Below are positions 7,401 through 62,960 of a stretch of 64,000 nt of DNA, one piece after another; positions within the stretch are counted from its first letter, which is position 1; every line of letters begins with the position of its first letter. Where the stretch lies: NCBI RefSeq assembly GCF_030867095.1, contig NC_081824.1:349592203-349656202 (forward strand), in the 5' to 3' direction. The position numbers were made by a program, and so were the translations under genes. Under the pieces are notes generated by a model. That model did no database searches and had not been told where the DNA came from. It saw nothing but the letters and a program-made list of their open reading frames with translations. The stretch is from Alligator mississippiensis (taxonomy: Eukaryota; Chordata; Crocodylia; Alligatoridae).

Positions 7401-10400
7401 ATTTGTCTACGGTCCTCTTTCTTTAACATACTGGGTTACTGCTCTAAGAAATGCTTGCTACTGAATAAAATTCATTTTAAATAAAAAAAAATAATAATTC
7501 ATTGTTTTTGAATTAACAAAGTATCTTGCTTTCTAGGTCACATGTTGCTAAACCTAAGTTATGGCAAGCAAGACTTCTTGAAAGAGATTGTGGAGTCTTT
7601 TGCAAACAAAAGTGGGCAATCTACTTTATTTGATGCACTCTTTGAGAGAGGCATTTCTAGAGAGCGATCTTTCCTTGGCACAGATGATATTGGAAACATC
7701 AGTGTACATCCACCGGAACGCATGGAACTTGCTAGACATGATATTGGTAAGACATGTCACTTTAAGTGTATTTTATGTATCTTAACGTTGTGTTCATGCA
7801 GATGTGTTAACTATAGGTACTTGAACATTGCAGACTACGATTGAGAACAAATTTGCTCCTAAAGTAATTTTAGACTATAATTTACCTTTTGGTTATAAAT
7901 GAATTGAATAAGCCTGAGAACTCAACATTTAGCTATCTATTGTTCATCTACTTTTCTCAGCACCTAATGGAAAATAGGTGAGTCTAACATCTCCAGAAGA
8001 TGAAACCTTTTCTGTTAGACTAGATGGAGATTGTATGTGCAAAAGCTGTAATCTATTAGCAACCTGCATATTTAAGTTAGAGACTGTTAGCTTGACATTT
8101 CAGGTGATAAATGTAGTATTGCATTGGAAGAACTGATCTCTCTGGACAGCCCGCATCCAGATCTATCAAATGGATATTTCAAAGAAGTTGTAATGCCCTT
8201 ACTTCCTGGGCTATTCTTTAGGTGGTAAACATGAAATGGTGAGTATTTCTGCATTAAGCTACTATATTGTGACAGTATAAACCAGGGGTCGGCCACCCCC
8301 AGCACGCATGCCAAGCATGACACACGAGACCATTTTCCTCAGCGTGCGTTGGGGCTGGGGAGGCAGCAGCTGTTTGCAGTTGGCCCCAGATCTGGGTAAC
8401 TCAGGGCTGGGCAAAATATGGCCCGTGGGCTGCATCTGGTCTGCGAGGCCTATCTGGCCCACGGGGTCCCTAAAAAATTTAGAAAATTAATATTTATTTG
8501 TCTTTGGTTCCTGACAAAAATGACAGGAACCAGGGGCAGTAGGAACCAGGGGAATCCTGGTGGGCTCCTGAAACAGCAGGGCCCCCCCGGCCCCGCCCCC
8601 CCACTGGGACCATGTGGCTACACCATGCTCGAATGTGGCTGCACCATGCTGGAACCTCAGTGAAAGGGAGGGAAGGAGCCTGGGGAAAAGCGGCCCTTCC
8701 CCAACCCTGTGGCTGGCGCTCCCTGATGCAGCCACTCGCAGCCCGCTAGGGGCTGTCCTGAGCAGGCACAGGCGGCCCCACGTGGGCTGCGAGTGGCAGC
8801 AGCATAGGGCACCGGGCAGGGGCCAAGGATGTGGCTGCTTTTCCCGTGCTCAGCACCAGCTTGTAACCTGCCCTCACAGCCAGCCTGGGCCCTATGCTGG
8901 CTCTGGACTCGCTTGTCGGGCCTGCGTGCGGCGGCAGCTGCTGCAGCCCTCTGCTTGCTGTGCCGGGCAGTGTTTGCAGCTGCTGCTGCCCACCCGGAGC
9001 TCGCACATCAGGCAGCCAAGAGGCGGCGATGGCAAACACTGCCCAGAGCAGCAAGTTGGGGGGCTGCAGCTGTTGCCACTGCGGCAGAGCCCCAATGGGC
9101 GAGCCCTGTGCCGGCGTGGGGCCTAGGCTGGCAGTGAGGGCAGGTTACAAGCTGGTGCTGAGAGTGGGAAACGTGGCCCCGCCCTGTGCCCCGCACTGCT
9201 GCCACTCGCAGCCCGCATAGGGCTGCCTGTGCCTGCTCAGGACAGCCCCACGCGGGCTGCGAGTGACTGCAGCAAGGAGTGCTGGCCACAGGGCAGGGGC
9301 CACTTTTCCCGGCCTCAGCACCAGCTCGTTCCCTGCCACGGAGCAGGGGCTTGAGACGACATGCTGCCCCCGCCTGTACAGCAGGGCTGGGGGGCACTGG
9401 GAGTGAGCAGGTCCACGGGGCCCACACCAGTGTCCCAGTGCCAGCGCTGGCAGGGCTCAGAGCAGGGCAGCAGGAGTACAGGGGCCCTGGACAGCAGGTG
9501 CTCTGTGGAGCCAGGTCAGCTCCCCCCTGTCCTTGCTGGTGCAGCCCAACCTGGCTCCACAGACCCCTGCCAGACTGCACCCTGCTCTGGGCCCCACTGG
9601 CGCTGGCCCTGAGACATTGGTCCCGAGACATTGGGCCATTGGTCCCAAGATGGTGACCAGGGGTCAGGGCTACCCATGTGGCCCTTAACAGCTTGCCAAA
9701 ACTGGGTAAGTGGCCCTCTGCCTGAAATAATTGCCCACCCCAGGGTAGCTGTTGCCAGCCTGGAGCCCGGGCTGCTCCCAGCCCGCAGCTGAGATACTAG
9801 AAGCCCTGCTGGGAGCCGCAAAGGCTTTGTGGCTATCAGCAGCTACCCAGAGCCGGGGCCAGCTGCAGTTGGGAGGCTACAAACAGCTGATGCCTCCCCG
9901 GTCCTGGCCCTAATGGACGTGGTACCGCACCTGCTGCCTTCCCGGAGCCGGCAGACAGCTGTGGCCAGGGCCAGAGGGCAGCAGTTGTTTGTAGCCTCCT
10001 GGCTGCAGCCAGCCCCAGCTCTGTGTAGCTGCTGACAGCCACGGAGCCTGGGCTGCTCCTGTGGAAGCCCTGCTGCAAGCAGCCCTAGCTCCATGGTTGT
10101 CAGCAGCTACCCAGAACCTGGGCCAGCTGCAAACATCTGCTGCCTCTCTACCCAGGCTCCAGGGAGGCAGCACATACCGGCAGTGCTCCCCGCTGTGCTG
10201 CCCTTGCCACTTCTGCAAAGCAGCATTGGAACCTGGCGTGACAGGACACAGCAGGGGTGCAGAAAGTTGCCTGCTCCAAACTCCCCGCTGCCCTGCCACA
10301 CTTCCCCTGCAGGCGGGGGTAGCAGCAAGGGGCACAACCCTGTGCTGCTGCCCACACTGCTCCTGTGCATAAGGGAAGTGTGGCAGGGCAGCTGGGAGCA

Positions 10401-13400
10401 GGCACCTTCCTGCGCGCACCCCGGCCCCCTCCCCCCCCCCCCCCCCCCCCCCCCCCCTCCCAAGCTGTGCTTTACCATGCCAGGTTCCAGCGCTGCTTCG
10501 CAGAAGTGGCGAGGGGAGCACTGCTGGTATGTGCTTTTTTGGAGGTCTATCCAACTTCAGAAGTAGTTAAGTGATGGACAAATTCCTCAGGTGCCTGGGT
10601 TAAGCGGTCTCTTGCATCTGAAAAACTAAACTACTGTAGCAGCTCCCAAATAATTTTATTTTTTGCTTTTCTTCTCTTTGTTATTTAGGACCATCTTTCT
10701 GTTACCTTGTTCTTGAAGATTTGAGAGGTGTTTACCTAATACTAGCAACAACATTTCTAATATGAAAACTAAAACAATTTTCATACTCACTTTAAGCAAG
10801 GTGTAAGCAAATGAAATTGAGGGTTCAGAGGTTGTTGCGTAACTACCCAGGGCTGCAACATATATGCTCCATTCATGATACCTGATTTATTACCCGAAAC
10901 ACTTTTGCTGAGTCGGTAATCTCAAAATCAGTAACTGTGAGATGGCAAAATCATAGAATCTGTAAAATTTCACTTGGTGAGACACTTTATGGAGTATTTT
11001 ATACTCTCCCATTTCTCCTAATGTGTAATCCCATTGAGAACAATCTTTTAATTTGCTTCTGTGGAAATACAACTTGTTGACCCAAGTTTCCTGATTCCTC
11101 TAACTCGAGCTCACCACAAGTCAAGAAGAGAAGCAAATTCAAAAACAACACCAAAAAGCTGGTTTCAGTGGATAAGCATTTATTTAAATTGTTATGGCTT
11201 CCAAATTGGAATTATGCCTAGTTTTGATTATCTGGTGATTCTGCTGATTTATAAATATTCACCAGTTCTTTATTGCTCTTAGGTGCTGTTCGAATGCACA
11301 ACGGTAGTCTCCAGCACCTTATATGGCTTGGTTTACAGTGGAATTTCATGTCCATTTTACCTGCAATACGCCGGTGGTTAAAACAGCTCTTCCACTTGCC
11401 CCAGGAGACATCAAGACTTGAGACCAACGCTCCAGAATCAATTTGCTTATTGGACCTTGAGGTAGGGAAGCTATTTTTTTTGCTAACACTTATAATACAG
11501 TGTAAGCTTATAGTTTAACATGTACTTGTCTTGCAAAAACAGGTGTTTCTACTTGGGGTGATATTTACTAGCCACTTACAGTTGCAAGAAAAGTTTAATA
11601 CTCAGTACAGTTCACATCAGCCGCAATTTTTGCCTCTACCAGTGAGCAAACAGCTTTGTACTGAAAGACAGAGATCCTGGTGGGAGGCTGTTTATACTCT
11701 TCTTCACAAAAAAGCATTGTAAGTATTTATTTTTGTTTTTTACTAATTCATTTTAAATTGCTTCTGACATGGTAACTTGAATCAGGCAGTTTTAGGTTCT
11801 TGAGCTTTGTTTCATTGCTTTGTCTTGCTCACTTCATGAATTTCCATATTTGACTGATATAAATAAAGATTTCTGGGACAGCCAGGAGAAACTATAAACA
11901 GGGATTTGTATACTTGTTTTACATGTGGCTTGGTGCATATTACAAGAAGTAAAACTTGTTTAATCATTATTGTAGTGTGAAGATGAAGGACAATCTCCAT
12001 AAACAGTTGTGATTAATCAAGTAATATGTAATCTACTTTTCAGACCTGGCACAGCAGCAAAATTGAGGATCCTAGTCCAACATGAAATAAACACTCTGAG
12101 GGCACTGGAGAAACCAGGCCTTCAGCCTGCCTTAATCATACATTGGGCAAGGAGTCTGCAAAAGACAGTAAGTTGACACCACTTAAAGATGCTGCTATTT
12201 CTGAATATATCTGTGCTTTTAGCTTCTCTCATTGCTATTCTAAATTGTGTTAATCTAGTTCTTGGCAAAAATAAACGGGGGATGTAGTAGATGTCCACTT
12301 GATCATGTATTCAAAGATGAAACATCTTTTTCTTTTGCCAACCTATATTCAGTACTTTTTAAAAATTATTTTAGTTGCATTTTTTTTTCTCATATAGGCT
12401 TGCTCAGACTGCCTGAGCTAACCTTAGCAGCAGTAAATGAGCTGGAATAAAAGAGCTTTTTTAGAGCTGTTTCATATCTTAACAATGTTAAATTTTAAGT
12501 AAACTTTTTAAAATTCTGCTTCCTTTCACAGGGCAGTAGTCTAAACTCTTTCTATGACCAAAGGGAATACATTGGCCGAAGTGTTTATTTTTGGAAAAAA
12601 GTTTTACCTATGCTGGAGACTATCAAAAAGAAGAAAAGCATTCCTGAACCTGCTGATCCTCTGTTTAAACACTTCCATAGTGTAGACATCCAGGTACAAA
12701 AATAACTAGGACTATAAAAATGAAGGATGCTAAGTAACCAGGGGCCACTTCTAGTTCCTCATGCAGACAGAGGTTTAATTTTAGATTTGGATTTATTTCC
12801 CGTTTGCAGCCCTGCACCTCAATTACTGCCCTCCAATTTATCAGAAGGTTTCATTTTGTCAGGAATTCATCCTTCTACATAGTTTAAAAATCTCCTTGTA
12901 GCTTCAAGCTGTTGCTTTTCCCTCTTAAGCCACTTTCCTAACTTGTTTAATTGCTTGAGCTTACAGGTTGTTTTTTTTAAGCTTTAGGCCAGGGCTGTGC
13001 AATATGTGTCGAGGGGGTGCACACAGTCTGGCATTCACCTCCCGGGCAGCATGCTCTCATCCGTCTGTCCATGTCTGTGGCCCCCCCCCACCTCCCTCCC
13101 GCCCCGTAGGGAGCACTTTGGGGAGGCTCTGTGGGCAGGCTTTAATTTGAATAATGCTTATAGTTCCCTAAGTAGGACATCTAGATGTCCTCTTCTTCGC
13201 CCCAAGGGCAGATGGCAGTCTAGGCCTGACAGCCAGCCACAGAGACTGCTCTTTGGTTCCCCTGACATAATGTTTCATTGTATTGGGTAAGTGTTTGTCC
13301 TCTGGTTAAGACTATAGTTGTGTAACTGTTTTGTTGTGAGTGTGGCTGACCAGACTAGAGGAGAATGAGTGAAGCTCTGAGGGACCTACACAGGGAAGGA

Positions 13401-16400
13401 ATGGTGCCAGGGCAAATGGCATTGGAATAGCACAGTAAAGACCATTTTGAAGCAGTGTCTGCTCTGCTGCTTGGGATATTGGCACTTTGATAACCCTCTT
13501 TTAAAGAAGAAAACACTCTTCCTTCTTCTGAAGAGCTGACTGAAAAGAAGGAGCTCCCAGAGATGGGGTGTTGCGGGTCACCAGGGAAGCCAGGGACTGA
13601 GAAGAGCCAGGGTCTCAAAGTCAGAGGCCTGCCCCTTGTGAAACCAGGCTAAGGCTGGCTGCAGGGGCTTCTTTCAAGAGAGGGAAACCAAGTAAGGCTG
13701 TTTTTTGGCAAATGCTGGAGGAAGACCTTCCCCTTAACCCCCCCTCCCCACCTTGTGTGGACTTGTAGCACCCCTGAAAGCATCTTAAGGCACCCGGGTT
13801 GTTGTGGCTGAGAGTCACACTTCATAAAACTGGACAACTTACAAGTTTCACCAGCAGAAACTGAAGCTGAGGACACAACAAAATGAATTGTTTAGAGTCT
13901 AATGCAGAACTGGATATGTTTAACAGATTTCTAGAATACAGTGACCGCACAGCTTATTCATAGAAGTAGGGTCGGAAGGGACCTTGTAGATCATCAAGTC
14001 TGACCCCCTGCCCTGGGCAGGAGAGAAAACTGGGCTCAGATGACCCCAGCCAGGTAGACATCAGGCCTTCTCTTAAAGACCCCCAGGGTAGAAGCCATCA
14101 CCACTTGCCTTCGAAGTTAGTTCCAGATCCTAGCTGCCCTGACTGTGAAGTAGTGCCTTCAGATGTCTAATCTAAACCTACTGACAATTTGTGGCCATTA
14201 TTCCTTGTTACCCTGGGGGGCGCTAGGGGCAACAGGGTCTCTCCCAAACCCTGCTGGTCCCCCCTGGTGAGTTTATAGACAGCCACTAGGTCCCCCCTCA
14301 GACTTCTCTTGTGAAGGCTGAACAGGTTAAGGTCCCGTAGCCTCTCTTCGTAGGGTCTGCCCTGCTGTCCCCAGATCATGCGGGTGGCCCTCCTCTGGAC
14401 CCTCTCAATGCTGTCCACATCCCTCCTGAAGTGCGACGCCCAGAACTGAACACACTACTCCAGCTGTGGGCTGACCAGTGTCGCATAGAGGGGGAGGATC
14501 ACCTCCTTGGCCCTGTTTGAGATGCATGTGTGGATGCACGACAAGGTACAGTTAGCCCTACTGACCATGACCTCGCATTGTCTGCCCATGTTCGTCTTGG
14601 AATCAGTAATGACTCCAAGATCTCTTTTTGTCACCATGCTCTCAAGAAGGGAGTTTCCTAGCTTATAAGTGTGCTGCTGGTTCCCACTGCCCAAGTGCAG
14701 CACCCTGTACTTGCCAGTGTTGAAACCCATCCTATTTCTGTTAGCCCACCCCTGTAACCTGTCCAGGTCCTGCTATAATGTGTCCTTCCATAGTCCTAGT
14801 TCATTTTTTGTGGTTATAAAAAGAAAAAGTGCATGTACATGCTATATTAAGGGAACTATGTTCCAGGGTAGTGCACCCAAGTGTGCCAGAGTAATGCATA
14901 CACACAGGATTTGAAGTATGAAATCTTAAGTTGCATGTTGATGTGTGTGGTCATAGGACTTCTCCCTCCACTGGATAGAGCTCACTGAACAAAAGGGTTT
15001 TTTGTTGGTTTGTTTTATGCCGTGTTTTTATAACTTTAAGCTTCATATGCAGCCCTATGCTTTGTTCACTGAATACCACTCGAACCAGTTCTGACTACAG
15101 AATATCTTCTTAGGTTCTTCTTGGATGACAGTCTCTCTAATAATGCAGTGCTCCAGTCATTAATGAATTTTTCCTCATTAGAGTGGTGTTATCCCTAGTC
15201 TAAAGATGGGTCAAGGGAGGCACAGAATAACCAGAATAAAAAATCTGCCAACTTTTTGGTGTTTGGAATTTTAATTTTTTTTTTTTAAATAGTATGGAGG
15301 TTAAAAACACTGCTTACATCAGCTTCTTGAGAAAATGTAATAACTCAGCCCTCAGGTCTCAAATTGGAAACCTGCTTGTAAAATGTTTAGCTAGATCTTA
15401 CAAGTACTTGTGACTTACTTGCACACTGTTAATGAGGGTTGATCTTGAGGATATCATCCACAAGCTCATACCTACCTGCTGACTGATTATATCGCACCTC
15501 GCTGAATTGACCCACTGTAGCAGTTGAGCCCGAATCATTTTGTTCTTTATTTTCTTTTTAGGAATAATATTGTGAATATTGAACTGTTCTTATATGTCCT
15601 AATATTTAGCATCTGTCTAGTACATAGTAATTTTGGTATAATGCATATTACTCATTGTTTTAGCAATTACAAGACTGTTAAATGTATACTTTTTTGGTAT
15701 AAAACACATGCTTTACTTTAAATTCTTGACACTTTTTTTATAGCCTTCTCAAGTTGCAGAATATGAACAGGAGGAACGTATAGCATCTGCTATGCTCGCT
15801 GCAGTTGATGGAAGAACTGAAGATGCCTTGCTAGCATTTGAAAATATTAAGAATGTTGTTTCATACTGGAATCTTGCACTAGTAAGTGTATAAATCTTTT
15901 TTTTTTCTTTTTAAACTTTTGGGGTGTTTAAAACTATATGCTAAGTCTTACTCTGTTGGCTAGATATTCCAAAGAAAGGCTGAGGAGATTGAGAGTGATG
16001 CACTCTCACCAGAAGAACAAGAAGAATGCAAAAATCACTTGCGAAAGAGTAGAGACTATCTAATGAAGATCATTGATGAAAGTTTTACAGACATTTCAGT
16101 AATTGAGAAGGTATGCATGTTGGGCTTATTCAAGATCTGCTTGTTAATGTGATCAGAATCTTGATCTCAAACACTTTTTTTTATGAGTAAGAGTGTTTAG
16201 TGTGTCACATCTTTATGTTGAAGACTAACCAATTAAAAAGAATTCCCCCTAGCTTGTCTTGAAAGTGTAGGGGACATTCAGCATAATGTTCTCTTCTGAA
16301 ATACTGCTGTACGCCTTCATGCTTTTTTTGTAAATGTGAAGTACTGTAGTCAAAATTCTGAAATTGAACTGAAATGAGAGAACTTTGGAGGGTGTGAGGT

Positions 16401-19400
16401 TGTCAGGGTTGGAGCACAGATTTGATTATTAATTTTCTGTATAGCTTAACCTGAATATCTGTTTGTAAATAATTGTAAATGTGGCTGATTTAATCAGGAA
16501 AAGACGTTTTAATATTGTGTATTGTTAAATGGGTTAATGACTTGTTAGGGCCACTTTGTTCTCCCGAAGTTCAAGCATTTTACCCTAAGGATAGTGATTT
16601 GTATACAGGTTTCCCTCAATTTATGTCGGTTCCGTATATGCAAACTCGGTCTTATGTAATGACCCTTTTTATACCCCAGATTTGTTATACTCAAGGTAAA
16701 TTCAATCGTATGCAATCGGCTCCAGGGCTCTGCTTGTCCCCACTCACCCCAGCCCCTGGGTTGTGCTGTGTCATGGTGCAGGCAGGTGGTGTCAGCTGCT
16801 TCCAGGGCCGCTGCAGCAGGGGTTGGAGTGATGGGGAGAAGCGGAGGCCCGGGATGCGACAAGGTAAGTCTATAGGGAAAGGTGTGGGGGGTGGGGCACA
16901 GTGCAGCCTATTGGCCGCTTCCAGGGTTGCAGCAGGGAGCAAAGCAGAGGGAACTGTGAGTGGGTGTGGGACAGTGGTGGGGCATGGCTCTTGCTCCTAT
17001 GCGCACCCTAGAGGGCTGCGCCAGACTCTTTCCGGGGGGCACATGCCCCTGGATCTGTGCGCAGGAGGAGAGCAGGCTTCCATTGCAGTTTGGGACTGGC
17101 AGCAGCACTAGGCTCTTTCTGGTGCTCAATGGCAGTGCTGGGAGAGCAGGGTCGGCGGCAAATTTTGGGGTGACAGCAGCCCTTCCCCCATTGCAGTGGC
17201 CCACCCCGAGTGCTGGGAAGAGCCGGGTGCTACCTGCAGCGGCAGCTTGCTCTCCTCCCACACGTAGATCCAGGGGCACCTGCCTCCTGAGAAGAGCCCA
17301 GCCTAGCCCAGCCCGCAGCCATCCTGGGGTGTATATAGCAACAAGAGCTGTGCTCCCCTGTCCCGCACCCTGCGCCCATTCAGTTTCCTCCTTTTTGCTC
17401 CCTGCTGCAGTCCCAGGAGCAGCCCACCCCTTCCCCCTGCCCCTTTCCTAGTCCCAGCCTTGCTCCTTCCCTCCCCTCACTGCTGTGGGAACGTATCCCT
17501 ATTTCTTACACTGTAAATTGGGTTCCCTTTATGCAAATTTGATTTATGTGCAGTTTTCCAGGAATGCATGTATCGCATAAATTGAGGGAAACCTGCACTT
17601 GAACCCTTTATATCAGATTGTGCAAGAAAAATGAACTTGTTTCATGTAAATAATGGTAGTGAATAACAAAAGTATTCTGGAAAATTCTGTGAAGGATTAT
17701 GAGGCCTTAACAAAGTAGTGTCCAAGTTTGCTTTATTAGAAACATTGATCCAAACCTTAATTTTTTTCAGACAGGAATGCAGTAATGTTTGAGGGGAAGC
17801 ATCTTACCATAAAACACCACTTGCTGGCTAGTACATTATATACCACTAGTACAATAGATTCGAGGAAACATATCCTGAATTAATAAAGAAAACTTAAAGG
17901 CATAACTTATTCCTGAAATTCTTTCCTAGTTACCAGTGTCAATAGAAACTGTGAAGGAGACGCTGGATACAGTAATTCATGAACTTGGGGATTATGGTGA
18001 AGAAGGAAGCCCAGTCTTCAAGAATGATCTGTCTCAAGTTGCAGCTGCAGAAGTAAAACACTCTACTCCCTCACCAACAAAATTTACTTTATCACCAAGT
18101 AAAAGCTACAAGGTATATCAAAGAGTAAAAGTTTTTTCCTAAAGAGTATGCACGTCTAAAGAAAAGAAAATGATGATTCAATATTTCCTCTTCTAGTTCT
18201 CTCCAAAGACTCCCCCTCGCTGGGCAGAAGATCAGAAATCCTTGCTTCAGATGATCTGTCAGCAAGTAGAAGCCCTTAAGGTATATATGGCATTTGGAAC
18301 ATATCTAAGTCTGTTTAGTGAAGAAGAGTTTTTCTAGCAATGTGTATATTTGTAAAAATCAACATTGGATGGTGAAGTTTTGGCTTAAAACTTCACCAGT
18401 GTGGTGGGACCTCTGTTTTAGTTTTATGTAATTTGTCTAAATCTCAAAACCACTATGGTGGGGAAAGTGTCATTTAACTAAAAATCTTTCTTAAGAACCT
18501 GTAAGACTAGTGCTTAAGTCAGTATAGACATCTGTTAGAAAACTATGGACAACATGACCAATACTTAATAAGGAAAAAGCTTTTTAGGCTTTTCTGTAAG
18601 AAGACTTTCTCTGATGCTCAGAAAGGGGGAAGAGAGAGAAACATCTTAAGTTAAATGGTTAAAGGGACAGAACAAAAACACTAGATAAGTACAAAATACA
18701 TGTATACCTATTGAATGGCCTATCTAGTAGAAACATGGATAAAAATGGTCATGACTTCTGTAACCTAGTCAGTGTTAGGCATTTCGTTCACTTGTCTTGT
18801 GTCTTCCATTCAACAGTGCAGTTAGAATGCTTTTCTTTCATAGGCCTCTTTTCCCGGCCTACTCAGTGGTGCCTAATTCTCATTATGATGGCTTTCTTCC
18901 ATGTCTCAAACGCTAGTAACCAATGTTACTGACCTGACGGAAAATTATCCTTATTTGTTTTTCTGTATTTCATATGAAGCCTTATGAGATCATACTTGTT
19001 AGCCAAACAGTTGTTTTTCTGTTTGAATTTGGGTGGGGTGTGGGTACTGGCAGGCATAAGGAAGGTAGTTCTTAATCCAGGAGTGAAGTGTTTTAGTTAT
19101 ACATTGATTAAACTTTTTTCATTCTGGGTTGTTGGTTTTGGGGTTTGTTTGGGTTTTTTTGCCAGAGCACCACAGCATCAATCTTTTTTAAAGCTTACCG
19201 CTTTGGAGCAGAACCCACATAGCCTATGTCTTCATGTCCCTAGCTTTTTTGTGTTACTCTTTTTATTAGAATCCATTGATAGCATAACAACGTTAGTTTG
19301 TTTCTGGAAGGTTCATTTAGTACTAGTTATACTGAAACAAACTGTGTCTTCTTACTTTGTCCCTTGAAGAATAGCACCTCTGATTCTACCAAAATTGTAG

Positions 19401-22400
19401 ATTCGGAGTTCTCAGTCTCTGACCTTACTGGGAACCAGGTTAATTGAATTTGCAAAAGAGGAGCTGAAAGTCTACAACTACACTGTGAGCCATGTGCCTG
19501 ACTGCAACTGTGTTGGCTGTGCCAATAAAAATGAGGAAATTCTGACACTTGTTTCAGCCAGTATGTACCATCCAAGGTCAGGTGCACTAAAGGCGGCTCT
19601 GGCACCTGCTGAGGCAAGGTTTCTCTGAACATCCTGATGAGTATGACTTGCTGCTTGTCTTCATCTACCCATTAGGAGAGACCCAAACCTTTGCTCTCCA
19701 AGGAACAGAGCAGTACGCTAGTATTGCCTGTCCTTGTTTCAGGCTCAGACCTGATCTATGCCATGTCATTCTGTCAGCAAAACTGAAGGCATTCAGACTT
19801 GCAGGTGTCCTCTGATGAAAGAGAACTTCTGCTGCCATTCAGTAGCGATCAAAAGGTAAATGTAGGCAAGTCTGTACCTTCTGCCAGCTTCCATGGCACC
19901 TTCTAACAGCTGTGCCTGCACAAAGTGCGTGTTGTGTCCTGATGACTGCTCATGGTGTGGGCTCATGCAGGTGTGCGCACACTCCAGCTGCCTCTTTGTA
20001 GTGTCTGCTTTCTGTCACCAGAATTCCCATCTACTGGAAAGGAAACTGAGTGCATTGGGGAGAAATAGCTTTTTCTCTTCAGGTTTTCAACAAAACGCAT
20101 GTTCCCTGATGCTCCAAATATGTAACTCCAGTCTGTAGTGACATGCTGATCCATGCTTAAAAAAATTAAGGGCAAATGCTGCTGGTGGTTTATCCTTTGG
20201 TTCCTTTCTATATAGTCTCTCTCTAATAAACTCAGTACACTTCTAATTTGTTCTCTTCAGGACAGGGGTTTGGGTTTTGTGTCTTTTTAACTACAGTGCT
20301 TTGGGATACCCTCCTAATTTCTTGCTGGTATTTGACCAATTGTATGACTTACACTCGTGGTTTTGACTATTGGCTTGGTAGCAGACTGCTTACACCTCAT
20401 GAGATCTTTCTGTATAACTTGCTATGTATAATAATAAAAAAGAAGCTTTTCCAGCCTCAAAACTGAGGCTGGATGGCATGTTAAATAAAGGTAAAACTGT
20501 GTGCCTGAGTGTGCGTGTGTACATATGTGCACTTGCACACACCGGGCTTTGTTCAGGTAAACATTGCCTTGGAGGGGAGAACACCTTGTTTTAATTAAAA
20601 CTGCATAAATACTTCTTTCCTGATAGAATGAGATGCATGAAATGAAACTAAATTCCAGCTCAAACTTGTCATCTCATCGTTGGCCTTCTGAAAGCTATGG
20701 AGCAGATACAATGTCAGATGGCTATCAAGGAGCACAAAACTTTCACGGAGCACCATTAACAGGTAAGCTTCTAAAATTGTTATAGAAGACTTAATTAAAT
20801 AGGGTGAATGAATTCTAAAAATGTCATCTTTTTCAAAGATGGTATGTTTTGGACAGAAGCAAACTAGGATTAAACCATTTTATGTTCTCTTTTAGTTGCC
20901 ACTACTGGCCCATCTGTCTATTACAGCCAGTCACCTGCATATAACTCTCAGTACCTTCTCAGAACAGCTGCCACCAATGTAACACCAACAAAGGTGATGA
21001 TGAATCTCTTAATTTACTCCTGAACTCTTTAGTGAACTATAGTCTCATGCTTCTCACCTGCTATATGTAACATGGATTTTACAGATGAAGCCTGTTAGGT
21101 GTAACTGATACTTACACTTCTGTGTTTATTTTTTAGATTTGGAATATTTGGACTCCCTTGAGTGAGTCCTCTTAGTTGAACTCTCATGGTAGAGGAAGGG
21201 AGTTGTCTAAGACCACTTAAACATTTCAGTTAACCTACTTAGTTGCACTTTTAAGTAGGAATCCAGCCACATGGTCAAGGCAATTTAGGGTATGATGATA
21301 AAGTAAATGAGTGATACAGTTATGCCACATATAATGTTTAACAACATATGATGTGTCACACCTTAAACTGAGAAAGTGGCTGATTTGGGGCTGGCTCATG
21401 ACAGATCTCCACTCTAAGCTGAACATCAGAATCCAGCACACAGCTGTCTCCTACCCAGGTGGGCTCAGGGCAGAACCAGTTCCTGGAACCCCAACACTCC
21501 AGAGGCAGATAGAGAGCATGGTGAGCCCAACATCAGAGACTGTCTCCCTGATTTGGGGAGTTACTGCACCCTGGACCTTTAAAAACTGCATGTGCAGCCT
21601 TGCTGCCCCATGAGATTTTTCTGACATCCTGATGCCTGAAGACCCCAGAATCAAGGAACCTCTCCCTGATCCTGAGATCCCCGTATACCAGGGATATTGG
21701 AAAACAGCTATACGTGTAATTTTTATGGGTTCCAGTGCAACAGGACCAATTCCAGACCCTAATTTGGTCCCTGGCCCCAGCTGACAATTGGCTAATTGCG
21801 AGCACTTGATTTTCAACTTGCTGGTGCGAAGCAAAGTAAGGTGTAGTTGGGATCTAATTGCATGATTTTTAGGATCAGGGTCCTGCCATGCACGTGCGGC
21901 CTAAAGAACAAGAGCTTGTACGTGTCTCTTGAAAAGTTCACGTGCCTACTTAAAGCCTTCTGTTGGGGAACTTTTCTGAAAATAGTTTCTTCTCTGTGAT
22001 GGAGAAAACTTTGAGGGTTCAGTGGAGAAAGAGAAGCAGCATGCAGTATGTTACACAGAACAGCTGTCTAGATTTTCTTGATGTTGTTCAACATTGAAGT
22101 CTGTGTGTATTGAAGAATGGAAACTAAAAATCAACATAATCTCTTCATGGCAGAGACTGTGTTACTTGTGTAGTGCTTGTGATTTGTTTTGTGTTTGTGC
22201 AGGGGGGGGCTTGGCCCCTTGAAGCTACTTTAATACCAAGCAAAAATAATGATTTTTTTCTCTTTCTTTTTAAGGCTCCTGTCTATGGTATGAACAGGCT
22301 TACACCTCAGCAACATATATATGCCTATCAGCAGCCAATGCACACACCACCACTGCAGAACACTTCTGCATGTATGTTTTCCCAAGAAATATATGGCGGT

Positions 22401-25400
22401 CCATTGCGTTTTGATTCTCCTGCTACTGGGCTTCTGTCTCCACGTGGTGGGGATGAGTATTATAATTACAGTGTTCCACAAGCAAGCTCAAATCCACCAT
22501 TACCTGAACCAGGCTATTTCACAAAGCCTTCAATTGCTCCTCCAGCTGCAAAGCCTGCAGAACAAAAAGTGGTAGAATTTGGGAAATCTACCTTTGGGCA
22601 ACCTGTACCAACAGAAGTAACAAAACCCTCTCTGATGGCGCCAGCACATTCCGCTCAGTCAACAACTTTTAAGTTCAACTCTAACTTCAAATCAAATGAT
22701 GGAGACTTCACATTTTCTTCACCTCAAGTTCTAACACAGTCTTCCAACACAACTTTTAATAGTAGTGAAAGCCTGTTGGGTCTTCTGACGTCAGATAAAC
22801 CGTTACAAGACGAGCGGTGTACAGGACAAAAAACAGTTCCGGATCATACACCTAGCCAAAGAAATGTCTTCAGTTTTGGTAATAAAAGTATTTCAGGCAT
22901 CCCATTTACAGAAAACATGGGACAAAACCAACCTAAAAATTCTTTCTTTGGGAAAGGTGACACAGTTGGCTTCCATGAAATGGGAAAACCAGGGTTTGGG
23001 ACCCCAAGTTTAGATCTGGCCAACAAAAGTCATGAAACTGATGGCGGAAGCGTCCATGGAGGTGAAGATGAAGATGATGGTCCTCACTTTGAGCCTGTTG
23101 TGCCACTCCCTGATAAGATAGAAGTAAAGACAGGGGAAGAAGATGAGGAAGAATTCTTTTGCAATAGAGCGAAGCTGTTCCGTTTTGCAGAATCTAAAGA
23201 ATGGAAAGAAAGGGGCATTGGAAACGTGAAAATACTGAGACACAAAATATCTGGCAAATTTCGTCTACTTATGAGACGGGAACAAGTGTTGAAAATCTGT
23301 GCAAATCATTATATAAATACTGACATGAAACTGAAACCAAATGCTGGTTCAGACAAAACATTTGTGTGGCATGCTGTAGATTATGCAGACGAATCGCCAA
23401 AACCTGAACAGCTTGCCATTAGATTCAAAACGCCAGAGGAGGCAATGCTTTTCAAATGCAAATTTGAAGAGGCACAAAATATTTTGAGAACATCTGGAGC
23501 AACCACTCAGCACATTGAAAGTTCCAGACAAACAGTCAATCAAGATATCAAGGAGCCTTGCAAATCTACTCCTGGACCCCTGAACTTTGGATTTCAATTT
23601 AAGAAAGAGGGAATGTGGGAGTGTAATTTCTGCCAGAGGAAAAATAGTACAGCTTCATCCCTGTGTACTGCATGCCAGGCTTCAGTTCCAAATACAGGTA
23701 GTTCCGTAAAAGGACCTGATAGCAAGAGCAGTTTTATATCTATGTTGGATGTATCCACACCATCCTTTTCCTTTGGAAAGGAAATGCCATCTACATATAC
23801 TGCTAGTGGATTGGGCGAACAGTTTACGCCAAGAAAAGATCAGTGGAAGTGTAGATTGTGTTTCACTTGTAATGACGTAACAGCTAAGAACTGTATATCA
23901 TGTAATGGTCCAAATCTGAATAATAAGGAAACATATGTTGTACCAGTAGCTGAAACCGCTGCAGGTTTTATATCTAACACTGAGACCATACAGAATGCAT
24001 TTGGATCAGTTACTGTTAGAAAGGAAGGTCAGTGGGATTGCAGTGTGTGCTCAGTGAAGAATGAAGCAACAGCTGTAAACTGTGTGGCCTGCGAGAACCC
24101 AAATCTGGCTAACATGCAAATGTCTGGTCAGCCCGCTTCCTTTAAATTTGGCCAAGTGGATGTTGAAAAGAGTTCAGAAAATGATCCTGCTTCTGCTTGC
24201 TCCAAAAAGGAGGGTCAGTGGTATTGCATGGTGTGCTTAGTAAGAAATGAAGCAACAACAGTAAATTGTGTGACCTGCAAAGCTCCTCATTCTCAAGATC
24301 TGAAGGTCCCTGCGTCTACTGTTCAGACATCTTCTGAAAGTAAACCCCCTAAAAATGGATTTGGAGGGCTCTTTGCTAAAATGGAAGGACAGTGGGATTG
24401 TCCTGTTTGTTTAGTACGGAATGAAGCCACTTCTGCAACCTGTGTAGCCTGTCAAGCACACAATCCAAATCAGGCTAACATACCAAAGTCTGATCAGCCA
24501 GACTCCTTTAAATTTGGGCAAGTGGATGTTGCAAAGAGATCACAAATTGAGCTTGCTTCTGCTTGCTTCGAAAAGGAGGGTCAGTGGTATTGCAAGGTGT
24601 GCTTAGTAAGAAATGAAGCAACAACAGTAACTTGTGTGGCCTGCAAAGCTTCTCATTCTGAAGGTCTGCTGAAGGTCCCTGCGTCTACTGTTCAGACATC
24701 TTCTGAAAGTAAACCCCCTAAAAATGGATTTGGAGGGCTCTTTGCAAAAATGGAAGGACAGTGGGATTGTTCTGTTTGTTTAGTACGAAATGAAGCCTCT
24801 TCTGCAACCTGTGTAGCCTGTCAAACGCACAATCCAAATCAGGCTAACATACCAAAGTCTGATCAGCCAGACTCCTTTAAATTTGGGCAAGCGGATGTTG
24901 CAAAGAGATCACAAAATGAGCTTGCTTCTGCTTGCTTCGAAAAGGAGGGTCAGTGGTATTGCAAAGTGTGCTTAGTAAGAAATGAAGCAACAACAGTAAC
25001 TTGTGTGGTCTGCAAAGCTCTTCATTCTCAAGGTCTGCTGAAGGTCCCTGCGTCTACTGTTCAGACATCTTCTGAAAGTAAACCCCCTAAGAATGGATTT
25101 GGAGGGCTCTTTGCTAAAATGGAAGGACAGTGGGATTGTTCTGTTTGTTTAGTACGAAATGAAGCCTCTTCTGCAACCTGTGTAGCCTGTCAAGCGCACA
25201 ATCCAAATCAGGTTAACATACCAAAGTCTGATCAGCCAGGCTCCTTTAACTTTGGCCAAGGGGATATTGCAGAGAGTTCACAAAATGAGCTTGCTTCTGC
25301 TTGCTCTGAAAAGGAGGGTCAGTGGTATTGCAAGGTGTGCTTAGTAAGAAATGAAGCGACAACAGTAAATTGTGTGGCCTGCAAAGCTCCTCATTCTCAA

Positions 25401-28400
25401 GGTCTGCTGAAGGTTCCTGCGTCTACTGGTCAGACATCTTCTGAAAGTAAACCCCCTAAGAATGGATTTGGAGGGCTCTTTGCTAAAATGGAAGGACAGT
25501 GGGATTGTTCTGTTTGTTTAGTACGAAATGAAGCCTCTTCTGCAGCCTGCATAGCCTGTCAAACACAAAATCCATCTAGTAAAGCTGGGGATGCCACCTC
25601 AACTCCTGCATTTGGCTTCAAGAGCAAATTGTCTGAATCTGCCGGAGGACAATTGGGAACAGGTTTTAAGAGTGACTTTTCAGAAAAAGACTTTAAATTT
25701 GGTCATGCAGAAGGAAAGGCACCTTCCTTCACATTTCAGATTCCTTCTGGTAGTGAAGCTAACCCTACAAATGAAGGATTTAACTTTTCTATGCCTGTGC
25801 CTGCAGGTGGATTTAAATTTGGCATACAAGAGCCTGGCAAAAATATTACAAAGAAAGATGAGCCACCCAAAGAAAGTACAACAGGCTTCTTAAAAAGTCT
25901 TGACAAAAAGGAGAAAAGAGATGCTCCTTTTTCAGAAGGTGGGGCTGGTATCCGGTCTCCAGGAGCTTCTAATAAGCCAACTGGTGATTTAGTTTTTGGG
26001 CAGAATAGCAGCACTTTCACTTTTGCTGATCTTGCAAAAACTACTTCTGGAGAAGGATTCCAGTTTGGGAAAAAAGATCCAAACTTCAAGGGCTTTTCAG
26101 GTGCAGGTGAAAAACTGTTTTCCTCACAGAGTTCTAAAATGGATCACAAAGTTAATACTGCTGATCTAGAGAAGGATGATGATTCATATAAGACTGAGGA
26201 TTGTGATGATATTCACTTTGACCCAGTTGTCCAAATGCCTGAAAAAGTAGAGCTAGTAACAGGGGAAGAGGATGAGAAAGTACTCTATTCACAAAGGATA
26301 AAACTCTTTAGGTTTGATGCAGAAATAAGTCAGTGGAAAGAACGAGGTGTGGGCAACTTAAAAATTCTTAAAAATGAAGATAATGGCAAGCTAAGAATTC
26401 TAATGCGACGCGAACAGGTACTAAAAGTATGTGCAAACCATTTGATAACTACTACCATGAACTTGAAACCTCTGTCTGGCTCAGATAAAGCATGGATGTG
26501 GCTAGCTAGTGACTTTTCTGATGGTGATGCAAGGCTGGAGCAGCTAGCAGCTAAATTTAAGACACCAGAGCAGGCTGAGGAATTCAAACAAAAATTCGAA
26601 GAGTGTCAGAGGCTGTTGTTGGATATACCACTGCAGACCCCACATAAACTTGTTGACACAGGTAGGACAGCTCAACTTATACAGAAAGCAGAAGAAATGA
26701 AAACTGGATTGAAAGATCTCAAAACGTTTTTGACAGATGATAAAACGAAACTTACAGAGGAAGAGAAGAGAAGCTCACCTTTAGCCATCAGTACTTCTGA
26801 CTTGGTTATAAAGCCACATGCGGAAAGCACTGCACCTACGTTGGAATGGGATAACTATGACTTGCGTGAAGAAGCATTGGATGATAGTGTTAGTAGCTCT
26901 GTGTATGCATCGCCTCTGGCAAGTAGTCCTGTAAGAAAAAATCTGTTCAGATTTGGGGAATCTACAACTGGATTTAACTTTAGCTTCAAATCTGCCTTAA
27001 GCCCCTCAAAGTCTCCTGCCAAGCAGAACCAGAGCAGATCATCTGTAGGCACTGATGAAGAGTCTGATATCACTCAAGAAGAAGAAAGAGATGGACAGTA
27101 CTTTGAACCTGTGGTACCTTTACCTGACCTTGTAGAAGTGACAAGTGGTGAAGAAAATGAGCAAGTTGTTTTCAGTCACAGAGCTAAACTCTATAGATAT
27201 GACAAGGATGCTAATCAGTGGAAAGAGAGGGGTATTGGGGATATAAAGATTCTACAGAACTATGACAACAAACAAGTTCGTATAGTAATGAGAAGGGATC
27301 AGGTATTAAAACTCTGTGCCAATCATAGAATAACACCAGACATGAACATACAGCAGATGAAAGGAACTGATAGAGCATGGGTATGGACTGCCTGTGACTT
27401 TGCAGATGGGGAAAGAAAGGTGGAGCTCTTAGCTGTGAGGTTCAAGCTTCAAGATGTTGCAGACTCATTTAAGCAAATTTTTGATGAAGCAAAACATGCC
27501 CAAGAAAAAGACACCTTGATTACACCCCTCTCTTCACGTGCCAGTACTCCAAAGGAATCTCCGTGTGGTAAAATTGCTGTAGTTGTACTGGAGGAAACCA
27601 CCAGGGAGAGAACTGATCAGATCCATGATGAGGATACCTCTGATGTGACTGTAGAGGCATCGGAGGTGTCGAGCACTTCCGAAACACCAACAAAAGCAGT
27701 GGTTTCTCCTCCTAAATTTGTATTTGGCTCGGAATCTGTCAAGAGCATTTTTAGTAGTGAAAAATCAAAGCCATTCACATTTGGAAATACTTCAGCTACT
27801 GGATCTCTGTTTGGCTTCAGCTTTACCCCTCCTTCAAAAAATAAAACTGAAGATGCTAGTTCAGTGTCACAAAATACAATGCAGAGAGAACTCAAAGTAA
27901 CTGAACCTCAGAAAAGCCATGCTGTTAATCAGAAGGCTTCAGATGGCAAGATGGAAAACAATTCAGTTTCTTCAACAGAAGAGTCTTCAAATTGCATATT
28001 TAAAACACTAGAAAAAGGTAAGCATTATCTGAACTGGGAGCTATTTACATTAAAGAAAACTTCCTATCTTCCACTGTTAGTAGATTTATTTAGTAAAGTA
28101 ATGTTTCAGACTTCTGAAAATCCGCAAAATTTTTTACTATAAATTTTTGGTTATATTGCCATACAATTGCCATATAGTACTGTATTTACCCAAGTACAAG
28201 ATGAAGAGTACTCCTCCTCTCCCCTCCACACTGCTTTTGCTACCTGCAACCTCAAATCCCCACACCCCCTTCCTCCCGTCTCTCCCTCCTGTATTTCTGT
28301 TTTGTGTCAGCTCTTGATCCCTGCTGCAGTCTGGGGCAAAGAGCATGGTTCCAGCCCAGCCCCATAGCAGTGGTACAAAGCCAGCACTGCTGTTCCAGCC

Positions 28401-34400: not shown

Positions 34401-37400
34401 AGCCTGAAGCTAGATACTGTTGGTCTTAGAACCATCTCATTGGCTGCCAGCATAGTTAAGATACAAATATTGGGGGGGGGGGGGGGGGAGTTGCATGTGT
34501 CCTGTTCTTCCCCCCTCCCCCCTTGATTCATAGATTCATAGATGTTAGGGTCGGAAGGGACCTCAATAGATCATCAAGTCCGACCCCCTGCATAAGCAGG
34601 AAAGAGTGCTGGGTCTAGATGACCCCAGCTAGATACTTGTCTAACCTCCTCTTGAAGACCCCCAGGGTAGGGGAGAGCACCACCTCCCTTGGGAGCCCGT
34701 TCCAGACCTTGGCCACTCGAACTGTGAAGAAGTTCTTCCTAATGTCCAGTCTAAATCTGCTCTCTGCTAGCTTGTGGCCATTGTTTCTTGTAACCCCCGG
34801 GGGCGCCTTGGTGAATAAATCCTCACCAATTCCCTTCTGTGCCCCCGTGATGAACTTATAGGCAGCCACAAGGTCGCCTCTCAACCTTCTCTTGCGGAGG
34901 CTGAAAAGGTCCAGTTTCTCTAGTCTCTCCTCGTAGGGCTTGGTCTGCAGGCCCTTGACCATACGAGTTGCCCTTCTCTGTACCCTCTCCAGGTTATCCG
35001 CATCCTTCCTGAAGTGTGGCGCCCAGAATTGCACGCAGTACTCCAACTGCGGTCTGACCAGCGCCCTATAGACGGGAAGTATCACCTCCCTGGACCTATT
35101 CGTCATGCATCTGCTGATGCACGATAAAGTGCCATTGGCTTTTCTGATGGCTTCGTCACACTGCCGGCTCATGTTCATCTTGGAGTCCACTAGGACTCCA
35201 AGATCCCTTTCCACCTCTGTGCCACCCAGCAGGTCATTCCCTAGGCTGTAGGTGTGCTGGACATTTTTCCTCCCTAGGTGCAGCACTTTGCATTTCTCCT
35301 TGTTGAACTGCATCCTGTTGTTTTCTGCCCACTTGTGCAGCCTATCCAGGTCTGCCTGCAGCTGTTCCCTGCCCTCCGGCGTGTCCACTTCTCCCCATAG
35401 CTTTGTGTCATCTGCAAACTTGGACAGAGAGTACATTTGACTCCCTCGTCCAAGTCGCTGATGAAGACATTAAAGAGTATCGGTCCATCAAGAGTGTTGG
35501 TCCTTTATCCCTACTATGCTTTGTTTTTGGCTGGGTTTTTTGTTTTATTTGAGGGTACTCTGGGCCGTTTACTAGGGAGGTCTAATTTTAACTCTTAGCT
35601 ACACTTGGCTACATGACTGAAATTGCAGAAGTTTAGACTTCCCAGTTTGACCCACTGTCTTGCAGGAAGACTAGAATGTGAGAAGTAATTACAGAAGTTC
35701 ATTCGTGAACCTGAAATAAAAGCTGCAAAGCAGTTTTTGAAGATGGTTGAGGTTCTGGTTCTGTCAATGTTGCAATGTCATTTGGCTTCATTAGCTCCCG
35801 GATTTGACCTGCTTGATCCTTAGAGAATTTGTTCACTTGTTAGATGAAAAAAAATCCTGTACTGGCAGACACATTTGAGTATGGTAAAGCATGCTCAGTT
35901 TTTCTGATTGCTTTAATCAGAAATTGCAAATTGCCTAAGCATTGTTATATGAAGTGCCCCTTTCTGATATTATTCAATTGCCTACTTTGGCTGTACCAAG
36001 CAAATACTGGTGTAGTACTGATGTGTTCAAACTTCTTCCTTAGAAATGTTGAGAGAGGGTATGAGGAGAATCTCCTTGCTTTTTGGTAAGGGTAAAATGT
36101 TGAATGAAGGTATAGATGTGGCAGTTTCCTTAGCTGGAAAAGCTAAACAATTAAAAATGACATAAGGCATAAGTGAACTTTAATGCTCCTGTCCCAAGTG
36201 AAGAATGGAAGTTAATTTTTTTTAATATTAATGCCATGTATTGCTTACATAACCCTGTGCTGTGGCATCACATTTTTAAAGTAGCCCTAAAAGTCCAGTT
36301 TACTTTACATTACACACATCCTTTCTATATATAATTTCCAGTCACAGGAATTTTAACTTTACTGACCCCAGAGAAAATCAAGTTGGTAGTTGCTTGTAAA
36401 AATGCAAGGAGTAGTAAATCATGTAAGTTGGCCTGCAGTTTTGATCTCGGGGCAGACTAACCTGTTTTCTTAAAAGATTAATTCTTTATTAAAAATTATA
36501 CACTGCATTGCTCAAATTAATAAATACTTAGCATGCCAAACACAACCTGCTTTCTTAAAAAGTTCTAAAAATTAAAATGCATCCAACAACAGCAATTTTT
36601 TTTTTTTATCTTGCTTAAGCAGTATGGCCAAAATCAGTAAGGATTATGAGAACTGAAAGATGCTATATGCTTCTTAATGTCCTGCCATAATACTTGCTTT
36701 CTTGTAGCTAAATATATTTGCAACACAGGCTTTTTTCTAACTTTTTTAGCCTTCAGAATGCTTTCAACTTTCTACTAATAATGACAGTTTATTTTTTAGA
36801 CTTGTTCTCAAACATTTTCATTTCAATTCTGTCATTTTTTTTGGTTTTGTAATAGTTGAGAGCAAAAAGGAATCCCCTGTAGAAACTCAGTCTGATGATG
36901 TGCTCATTGTGTATGAATTGAAACCTACACCTGAACAGAAGGCTCTTGCTGACTCTCTTAAACTCCCTTCAACATTCTTCTGCTACAAGAACAAGGCTGG
37001 TTATGTCAGTGAAGAGGATGATGGTAAGGGATCATTTTAAAAATTACCTCTGAGTTGAATTTGGGGGAACAATGTTATACCTACACTCTGACTGATGGAA
37101 TATCAACAGATGCTTAAAAGGGGAAAGAAACTTTAACCAAAACATTGTTTTTGTTTTGGCTGTTCCCTTTTTAAATATAGAAGCTAGCCAGAATCAGGAA
37201 TTTTGCAAGTGTAGTGAGCACATGTCTGTGACAAATTAGCTAGAGCTGTAAGTTCACAGCGGATGTCTGAACTGATGGACTCTCTTGACTTCTTTAAGAT
37301 GAAGACTATGACACAGCTGTTAAGAAACTGAATGGAAAGTTATATGCTGATGATCCAGAGGAATGTACATCTTCACAAGATCCAGTGAAAGGTAAATCTT

Positions 37401-40400
37401 GAAACGACTGTCAACTACCCTTCTGAACTTGCTTAATATTGGTGGTGGTCTAGAACTCCCAGGCTTCCTACAGGGAAGCCATACAGCTCTAGGTCTCCAG
37501 TCATTCAGCACTCGGCATGCTAGGGCTGTGGTCAAAAGTAACGTGTCAGGCGATTTCCAGAACCCAAAGCAATTTTCTCTGCTCAGTCAGTAGTTTGTTA
37601 AATTGAGCTTAGTTCTACAGTGACCTGAGGAAGGGCATATTATCCTTGAAGTCTTATCTGACACCTCTGTCTACATTTGATGGTTTAATAAGATATATTA
37701 TCAAGGAACTCCTACATCCTACATGCATATTCCTTGGGCCATCATGGTTACAACAATGCCACTACTTAAGTTTCACAAAATACTTTGTTCTCAAAAACTG
37801 ACTTTCTTCAGAAATTCTTGACTGTCCCCATGCCAGTACCAAGATGCAAATAAACAGCTATTGCATGAACTTACCTCTATAAGCAAAAGTATACTGGTAT
37901 GTTCCTGTTGGTCTGTGGTGATTGGATGTTCGTTCTTGTTGTGATCTCTAGTGAAAAAGATTTAGCAATATCAATATCTAAACTACCATGTCCAGGTGTT
38001 GAAGCTGAAACTAAGAATTGCACATGAATAACTGTTCCTTATTATTGACACCAGGTTGTCCTTTCTAGAATGAAGGTAAGCATGTGCTGGATCCTTTTTA
38101 AAAACCCTGTTTCTTTGAGAGAATTTGAAAGAGATGGGGTGGGAAAGAAACAAGAACAGGTTTGAAGATCTGGGCTTTACCACGTCATGGATGGTTATTT
38201 GAGGGATTAAGTGGCAGAAAGAGAAAAGCAAGTTAATGATTTAAAACTTAGATTTGCTATAAAGGCTAGAGACAGTTTCTACAAAAATATTGGTAGAAGA
38301 CTGTTGGCATGCACTTCTATTTGGATTTACCTTCTTCCTACCTGTCACTTGACAACAGCAGAGTGGTTTGTCTGACATAAATTACTCTAGGTGGCATCTG
38401 GCAGAATGATTGTTATAGCTTGACAACTTTCATATTGAAATAAAAAGCCCCCACTAGAAAAGGAGGGTTCTAAAATGAGTATTTCCCATTGGATCAACTC
38501 ACTCTAGGTAACGAAAACAAATAAAATCTAACATGGATAATGAATATATAACTGGTTGCATCATCATATTCAACAAAGTCATCAATGGTTCAGTGCCTAC
38601 TTGGGAGGAGATATTGAGTGGGGTTCCCTAGGGATGTATCCTAGGTCCAGCTGAATATTGTTGAATATCTTCAGTAATAATTTGCGTGGTGGGATTCAGT
38701 GCATGCTTACCAAATTTGTGGATGACATCATGTTGGGTGGAGTTGCAGATACTCCAGAGGGTGTGGCTAGGATCCTGAATGACCTGAACAGACTGGAGAA
38801 ATGGTCTATGATCAATCAAATACGATTCAGTAAGCACAGGCGTAAAATCCTGCACTTGTGACATAATAATTGCATTCACAAATACAGATGGGAACGTGGC
38901 TAGGCTGCAGTACTGCAACAAAGGACCTGAGAGGTACAGTGAACTATAAGCTGAATATGAGCTAACAGTGTGCTCTTGTTGCAAAAAACCCAACAATACT
39001 CTGGGTTGTATTAAAGGAGTATTAGTTGCAAATCATGGGAAGCGATTCTTCCACTCTGTTCAGCATGGGTGAAGCCTCACCTAGAGTACCATGTTCACTT
39101 TTGGGCCCTACCCTTCATGCAGGATGTGGACAGTTCAGAGATTATAGGTGCACAGCAGCAAAAATTATTGGCATTCTGGGAACCGAGACTTATGAAGAAA
39201 GACTGAGGACTTAGGGTTAGTTAGTCTAGAGAAGAAGAGAGAGAGAGGGAAAGGAATTTGATAAGTTCAGATACCTGAATGGTGATCATAGAGAGGACGG
39301 AGATGGGCTTTTCTCTGTGGCTACAGGGGACTAGAAGCAGTGGCCTCAAGCTGAAGCAAGGGAAATTTAGGTTGGAGATTAGGAAGAATTTTCTGGCTGT
39401 CATAGTGGTCGAGCATTAGAACAGGTTACCTAGACAGATTATGGAATCTCCATTCTTAGAAGTAGCAAGAGCAGGTTTACCAGACATTTGGTTAGAATGG
39501 CTTAGTCAGGGATGATCCTGCCTTGAGCAGGGGGGCTGGACTAGATGGCCTTGTGAGGTCTCTTACAGCCCTACTTTCCTATTAACCTGTTATGAACTTG
39601 ATTTGTTAAGTGTCAGCGCTAGCTGGCAAGCTGTATACCCAAGTGTTATCCCTTTGGTTTTAGCATTTCAAAAATATCTTGCTGTCTTGTTTTCTGCTTT
39701 CAGTAATTTGTAGTGTGCTGTCTGTAGGTATGGCCTGTGAGGATGAACCAAAGAGTGAGAGAGAGTGCGTCATTGTTTGGGAAAAGAAACCAACTCCTGA
39801 GGAGAAGGTCAAAGCAGAGACTCTAATGCTCCCTTCAACATTTTTCTGTGGTGTTGGCAGTGATACTGATGAAGACCATGACAATCTGGAAAATTTTCAT
39901 ACAGAACTGATGAAAAAAACTCAAGAAGTTAAAGTAGGAATTATATCTTTAAGCATGGCTTTCAAATTTGTTTTGTTTCATCATTAAGAATTTTAACTTC
40001 AAAGGGTCGCAAATTCCTTCTAAATTCATTGCATTAATGTTTGCTTTTTTTTAAATGGATGTTGCTGCTCCCACATCTTGGTGTGCACTAATTTTCCTTA
40101 TTTGGGAGTAATCCCTTCAAGAGGTGCAGTTTAGACTAAATCTGATTGAACTATATGAAACTTTAAGATAATTTTAGATGTTTTCTTTCGATGCAGTCTA
40201 GTAGAGTTTAATCTGTGGGTTTCCCTTTTAAGTTTTAATTTTTTTTTGTATTAAAATAAATTACAAAATGAGTTATTCCTCACATGTCAAATATGGGTCC
40301 AGGGACAGGCACTATTACTGTGCAATATGTAGTCCTTGTTGATGTATGGTACCCCTGTACACAGGTAGGCCAGAAGGGTATTCTGTAGCCTGAAAGTTTC

Positions 40401-55959: not shown

Positions 55960-56200
55960 CAGTGGTTCTCAACTGGGGTGCCTTGAGATCCTCTCAGGGG
56001 TGCCAGGCAACATTAGCACTGTTGAGTGTGCAAACATGATTCATGAGATTAAACTGAGAGATGCCAAGTCCATGGTCTGAGTTCTTGGCAAGTGAACTGT
56101 TCTAGTATTTTTCTAGTCAGAAAGACAGCAAAAACAAAAGGGCAGGCATGTTCTGGGGGGAGGGGAATATCGAGTCTTAAAGAAGGGTTGAGAACCACTG
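55960..56200. mobile_element. hAT MITE, 241 bp
   Basis: It opens 'cagtggttctcaact' and closes 'gggttgagaaccactg', the classic hAT/Charlie-type inverted ends. Flanks 'acatagag' and 'atatagag' are an 8-bp target-site duplication with one change. No coding capacity. Confidence 0.88.
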
Positions 56201-57160: not shown

Positions 57161-57239
57161 AAGGGTAGGAGTAGGAGTAGGATGGGGGCAAAGGAAGTGG
57201 GGCTGGACCAGCAGGGGGTGGAGACCACAGACCTGGCCT

Positions 57240-62899: not shown

Positions 62900-62960
<61 letters not shown>
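62900..62960 (+). repeat. (GT)n microsatellite
   Basis: About 30 uninterrupted GT units. Likely polymorphic in length. Confidence 0.95.

Follow-up and report, generated by a model that had tools for sequence, protein, structure and literature searches.

Eleven zinc fingers in the RANBP2 gene of Alligator mississippiensis and probable growth of the array by unequal crossing-over

We analysed a window of 64,000 nucleotides from Alligator mississippiensis (assembly GCF_030867095.1, contig NC_081824.1, positions 349,592,203 to 349,656,202 of the forward strand), which holds the vertebrate RANBP2 (Nup358) gene on its + strand; positions below are those of the window. The giant exon of this gene encodes eleven RanBP2-type zinc fingers (F1 to F11, in order), and the last eight of them lie in four head-to-tail units of two fingers each. 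The sequences at the unit boundaries indicated that the array probably grew by unequal crossing-over between the ends of the last finger and of finger 3. This growth appears to be separate from the growth of the human and Xenopus arrays, judging from trees of the fingers.

Fingers were counted in the open reading frame of the giant exon with the motif WxC-x2-C-x3-N-x6-C-x2-C. It was satisfied by 11/11 fingers, and a looser motif gave the identical 11. Pfam PF00641 (Zn_ribbon_RanBP) matched with 291.4 bits against a cut-off of 27, and nine stretches were above the threshold alone. Applied to PDB chains, the same motif found eight fingers in human 7r5j, bearing out the original prediction of eleven fingers against eight in human, and six in a Xenopus chain. 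Two further families, PF15115 (36 bits, cut-off 27) and PF23705 (22.5 bits, cut-off 27), touched the repeat, but no stretch passed alone and both were rejected as repeat artefacts.

Tandem Repeats Finder (TRF) reported a single array at 24099-25574, with a period of 369, 4.0 copies, 94% matches and a score of 2546, while the best score among ten codon-shuffled versions of the exon was 52. The four units are in frame, and in each of them linker A precedes a WYC finger and linker B precedes a WDC finger (Table 1). The WYC fingers were spaced by 366, 369 and 369 bp, and the WDC fingers F5, F7, F9 and F11 by 369 bp three times, so that the motif and TRF both agreed with the predicted arrangement of four two-finger units. 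The array was thus real, but the limits first proposed for it, 24123..25592, were off by about 20 bp at both ends. Similarity begins in the linker just past F3 (~24099) and stops just past F11 (~25570), where the tail behind F11 aligned with the human sequence behind human F8. A unit beginning at F3 (WDC-linkerA-WYC-linkerB) was not preferred, because the array similarity starts in the linker of F3 and because F3 is nearer to the WYC fingers (78-79% identical) than to the WDC fingers (only 68-74%).

The units of F5, F7 and F9 were mosaics, resembling F11 up to a CCA junction shortly behind the finger and the linker of F3 beyond it. Up to the junction, F5, F7 and F9 were identical to F11 at 85/93, 87/93 and 86/92 positions (91-94%), compared with 66/87, 63/87 and 64/87 positions for F3. 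Past the junction, identity to the F11 sequence was 49/90, 48/90 and 51/91, compared with 84/99, 84/99 and 82/99 (83-85%) for the F3 linker.

Four trees were constructed from 25 fingers, namely 11 from the window, eight from human and six from Xenopus Nup358 (PDB 6lk8, taken to be Xenopus laevis from paper titles). Two data sets, the finger with its following linker (64 columns) and the preceding 22 residues with the finger (42 columns), were each analysed under LG+G4 and a mixture model; the human and Xenopus finger regions were taken from printed PDB alignments. F4/F6/F8/F10 formed a single, starred clade in 4/4 trees (98-100 / 92-100), and F5/F7/F9 came together in all four, starred once. 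The placement of F11 and F3 was split between the data sets. With the preceding linker, F11 joined F5/F7/F9 (94/91 and, starred, 96/91), and the grouping of F11 with human F8 and Xenopus F6 was rejected by the approximately unbiased (AU) test (p 0.0037). The grouping of F3 with F5/F7/F9 was also rejected there (AU p 0.0098), which also speaks against a unit beginning at F3. With the following linker, human F8, Xenopus F6 and F11 instead came together (93/78 and 89/64), and F3 joined F5/F7/F9 (88/86 and 53/68). The CCA mosaics and these split placements together point to unequal crossing-over at the ends of the last finger and finger 3.

The duplicated fingers of the window grouped together, which argues for growth separate from the human and frog arrays. 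Copies within the window were thus closest to each other, as expected of a lineage-specific expansion, in a comparison with human and Xenopus only. The human and Xenopus arrays were likely expanded by other units, although this was weakly resolved. The human F3-F7 clade (90/81) appeared in one of the four best trees and in none of the other three, but it was not rejected in the two trees tested (AU p 0.617 and 0.529). Xenopus F3 and F4 paired when the following linker was used (100/99, 91/89), and the preceding linker gave no resolution. The mixture-model rerun kept the window clades and weakened the human and Xenopus clades. The earlier proposal of a one-finger-plus-linker unit for the mammalian array is therefore plausible but weaker: in human, F5 and F6 have identical units and linkers 4-7 resemble linker B, but the F3-F7 clade was seen in one tree only.

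Linkers were compared by z against 300 shuffles, and six of the ten window linkers were included. Linker 1 of Xenopus matched linker 1 of the window (z 10.1), whereas human linker 1 matched window linker 2 (z 10.5) and not window linker 1 (z -0.2). This shift suggests that, besides its gains, the human line lost one finger and its linker near the N-terminus through fusion of F1 and F2 (23616-23903 in the window). In the trees, human finger 1 with its preceding sequence joined window F1 (86/89 and 93/94). Human linker 2 matched linker A (z 11.4), human linker 3 matched both A and B, and human linkers 4-7 matched linker B (z 10.0-11.6, against window linker 4). For Xenopus linkers 2-5 the matches were less clear, with best z between 3.1 and 7.3. 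On the simplest interpretation of the three sequences, their ancestor would have had at least F1-F2-F3-linkerA-F4-linkerB-last finger. The original prediction of independent growth thus holds in that the window copies are each other's nearest relatives against human and Xenopus, but not as a simple growth from eight fingers to eleven, since human apparently lost a finger too.

The array would have started with five fingers in that ancestral order. In a misaligned exchange, the last finger's end would then have been fused to linker A, just past finger 3, adding a 369-bp unit of two fingers. One or two later exchanges inside the repeat, in an order that we infer, would have given four units and eleven fingers, and the latest exchange was probably in the middle of the repeat. 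The human and frog arrays would have been altered separately. Units 2 and 3 were identical at 359/369 positions (97.3%), compared with 90.7-93.8% for the other five pairs, and 5/7 sites shared two-to-two split units 1+4 from units 2+3. As read from the unit alignment, the youngest copies are probably those in the middle, and some sequence was mixed between copies.

Several points weigh against this explanation. The CCA cut was placed by eye. The trees rest on 64 and 42 columns only, with starred inner branches numbering 4/21 and 2/20 under LG+G4 and 2/21 and 3/20 under the mixture model. Three of the four trees bring long branches together, among them human F8 and Xenopus F6. When the following linker was used, a grouping of F5/F7/F9/F11 was not rejected (AU p 0.173). 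Two of the seven informative two-to-two sites conflict with the others, so the copies probably exchanged sequence. Within-class nonsynonymous to synonymous ratios (dN/dS) lay between 0.35 and 1.69, with 1.5-4 synonymous changes in each pair except one, which had none; the F11 rows of the table were set aside, the F11 tail being misaligned. Since these ratios come from very few changes, neither strong constraint nor positive selection is shown by them. The invariance of Cys and Trp codons was weak evidence (P = 0.042, 10 codons).

The array could be old and common to a broad clade such as archosaurs and turtles, with gene conversion keeping the copies alike. We regard this as a serious possibility, though somewhat short of an even chance. 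It fits the same crossover mechanism and disputes the timing only: if gene conversion keeps copies alike, their low divergence would not date a lineage-specific expansion. The two conflicting sites, which suggest some mixing, are in its favour, as is the synonymous divergence (dS) of the F3 unit from F5/F7/F9, 0.51-0.62, against 0.05-0.08 among F5/F7/F9 themselves, and nothing speaks strongly against it. The copy number read from the assembly could also be wrong. At a lag of 369 bp the longest exact repeat reaches 115 bp, which is enough to confuse short reads, and near-identical units could have been collapsed or falsely expanded. However, the units differ at 49 alignment columns (three being the gap of unit 1), private changes number 18, 4, 3 and 12 in units 1-4 respectively, and the frame is intact. 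Because each unit has private changes, four different units exist, and we consider a wrong copy number very improbable.

RANBP2 fingers in general bind Ran and CRM1, and in the Ran-binding subset of such fingers a hydrophobic Leu-Val pair after the second Cys contacts Ran. All eight array fingers (F4-F11) keep the four Cys and LVRN. The Leu-Val pair is absent in F1 (QRKN), F2 (FTCN) and F3 (SVKN), so that LVRN is present in 8/11 fingers, as read from sequence only. The parts of the literature covered report that the human finger domain binds signal-sequence RNA directly and that Ran competes (PMC3635865), and that the human pore has 480 Ran-docking domains (PMC13242641). By the same arithmetic, 40 copies x (11 fingers + 4 RanBDs) gives 600 per pore. 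If stoichiometry and binding are unchanged, the array would likely provide more docking sites for Ran, and possibly for exportin and RNA, per cytoplasmic filament.

Alternatively, the extra fingers could be adaptive, fitting the protein either to signal-sequence RNA elements that are adenine-poor and longer or to a greater Ran flux. The portion of PMC3635865 covered reports a general correlation between RanBP2 finger number and the length of adenine-less tracts in 36 metazoans, and the array fingers keep their zinc ligands and LVRN. However, dN/dS among the copies gave no signal of selection, though its power was very low, and a cross-species correlation is no mechanism; we think such adaptation unlikely. 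The change in finger number may be close to neutral. We are equally doubtful of a broader reading, in which the finger array is a fast copy-number module that tetrapods rebuild with their own units, the human finger loss included, and in which the eleven-finger form alters docking of Ran or signal-sequence RNA enough for selection to act on it.

Table 1. Positions of the finger array and of other parts of RANBP2 in the window. Each finger starts at its W codon.
Feature	Position	Strand	Remarks
Zinc finger F1	23616..23675	+	Motif; linker after F1 matches Xenopus linker 1
Zinc finger F2	23844..23903	+	Motif; linker after F2 matches human linker 1
Zinc finger F3 (WDC)	24033..24092	+	Not part of the 369-bp array; linker A of unit 1 comes next
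Unit 1, 366 bp	24099..24464	+	Linker A, F4 (WYC, 24219-24278), linker B, F5 (WDC, 24393-24452)
Unit 2, 369 bp	24465..24833	+	Linker A, F6 (24585-24644), linker B, F7 (24762-24821)
Unit 3, 369 bp	24834..25202	+	Linker A, F8 (24954-25013), linker B, F9 (25131-25190)
Unit 4, 369 bp	25203..25571	+	Linker A, F10 (25323-25382), linker B, F11 (25500-25559)
RANBP2 giant exon (~human residues 900-2600)	22275..28017	+	Predicted splice sites at ends
Upstream RANBP2 exons	7521..20996	+	Match parts of human residues 351-900
SUMO E3 region exons	36831..39927	+	IR1-like repeat at 36.8 kb, IR2-like repeat at 39.7 kb
RanBD4 exon(s)	from 47835	+	Pfam PF00638
Cyclophilin-domain exons	48456-50554	+	Pfam PF00160

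The gene was assigned by the parts that define a RANBP2 orthologue, namely an N-terminal solenoid, four RanBP1 domains, RanBP2-type fingers, the IR1/IR2 SUMO E3 region and a C-terminal cyclophilin domain. Three RanBDs and the fingers were found in the giant exon, and upstream exons, IR-like repeats, RanBD4 and the cyclophilin domain outside it; the IR1 and IR2 labels were given by order along the human chain. In the search against PDB, the best match of the giant exon was human RanBP2 7r5j (2550.4 bits), and two Xenopus chains scored ~1895 bits. An open reading frame at 22140-28142 spans the giant exon without interruption. By eye, an acceptor-like TTCTTTTTAAG precedes 22275 and a donor-like AAG/GTAAGC follows 28017. 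A pseudogene or partial copy was not favoured, because gene pieces lie on both flanks of the giant exon in order. Over the examined part, which runs from roughly residue 351 of the human protein through the cyclophilin domain, the gene looks intact. A short RANBP2 exon probably lies at 30457-30573, between the giant and IR1 exons, where there was a weak match (14.6 bits) to a stretch of Xenopus Nup358.

Between RANBP2 exons, a 284-aa open frame on the - strand (34615-35469) resembled the C-terminal part of a non-LTR reverse transcriptase, presumably CR1-like; its Pfam RVT_1 match of 24.1 bits was under the cut-off of 29.6. The region 56001-57400 was G+C-rich (61% at 56001-57000, against 48% and 52% at the sampled 54 and 58 kb), and the long frames on both of its strands had no Pfam match. 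It is perhaps the CpG-island promoter of the next gene. A perfect TG dinucleotide repeat of 30.5 copies at 62900-62960 is likely a microsatellite. In the window, Rfam gave 0 matches at gathering thresholds and ARAGORN gave 0 tRNAs. Among viral and prokaryote contigs, no relative of the giant exon was confirmed (20 and 35 pattern matches, 0 by tblastn).

The array is a legible example of domain-array growth in a large nuclear-pore gene, with the likely crossover junction visible at the base level, and the human, frog and window arrays appear to have separate histories. As a natural variant in finger number, it could serve for testing the proposed link between finger number and adenine-poor signal-sequence RNA elements (PMC3635865). 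Taken alone, it leaves the current understanding of the nuclear pore unchanged. Among the papers listed in literature searches of partial coverage, none dealt with RANBP2 finger expansion in reptiles or birds.

Compared with known systems, human RANBP2/Nup358 (7r5j) is the same gene, has its fingers between RanBD1 and RanBD2 and shares linkers of both types with the window. It differs in its eight fingers, in its identical F5 and F6 units, which point to a one-finger unit, and in its F1, which looks like a fusion of window F1 and F2. Xenopus Nup358 (6lk8) is like the window in linker 1 and unlike it in having six fingers in the compared stretch (residues 1337-1748), of which F3 and F4 pair together. 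The parts covered of a study on repeat proteins (Bjorklund et al. 2006, PMC1553488) describe duplication as most often involving units of two domains, and many repeats as duplicated in the middle. The window array is similar in its two-domain unit and probable middle growth, but the zinc fingers shown in those parts are C2H2, and the RanBP2 type is not named in them. The number of RanBP2 fingers was compared across 36 metazoans and varies among these species, the human louse having no such finger, according to the part of PMC3635865 covered. Repeat growth in the window array is thus clear but of an ordinary kind, in a gene already known to vary between animals in its number of fingers.

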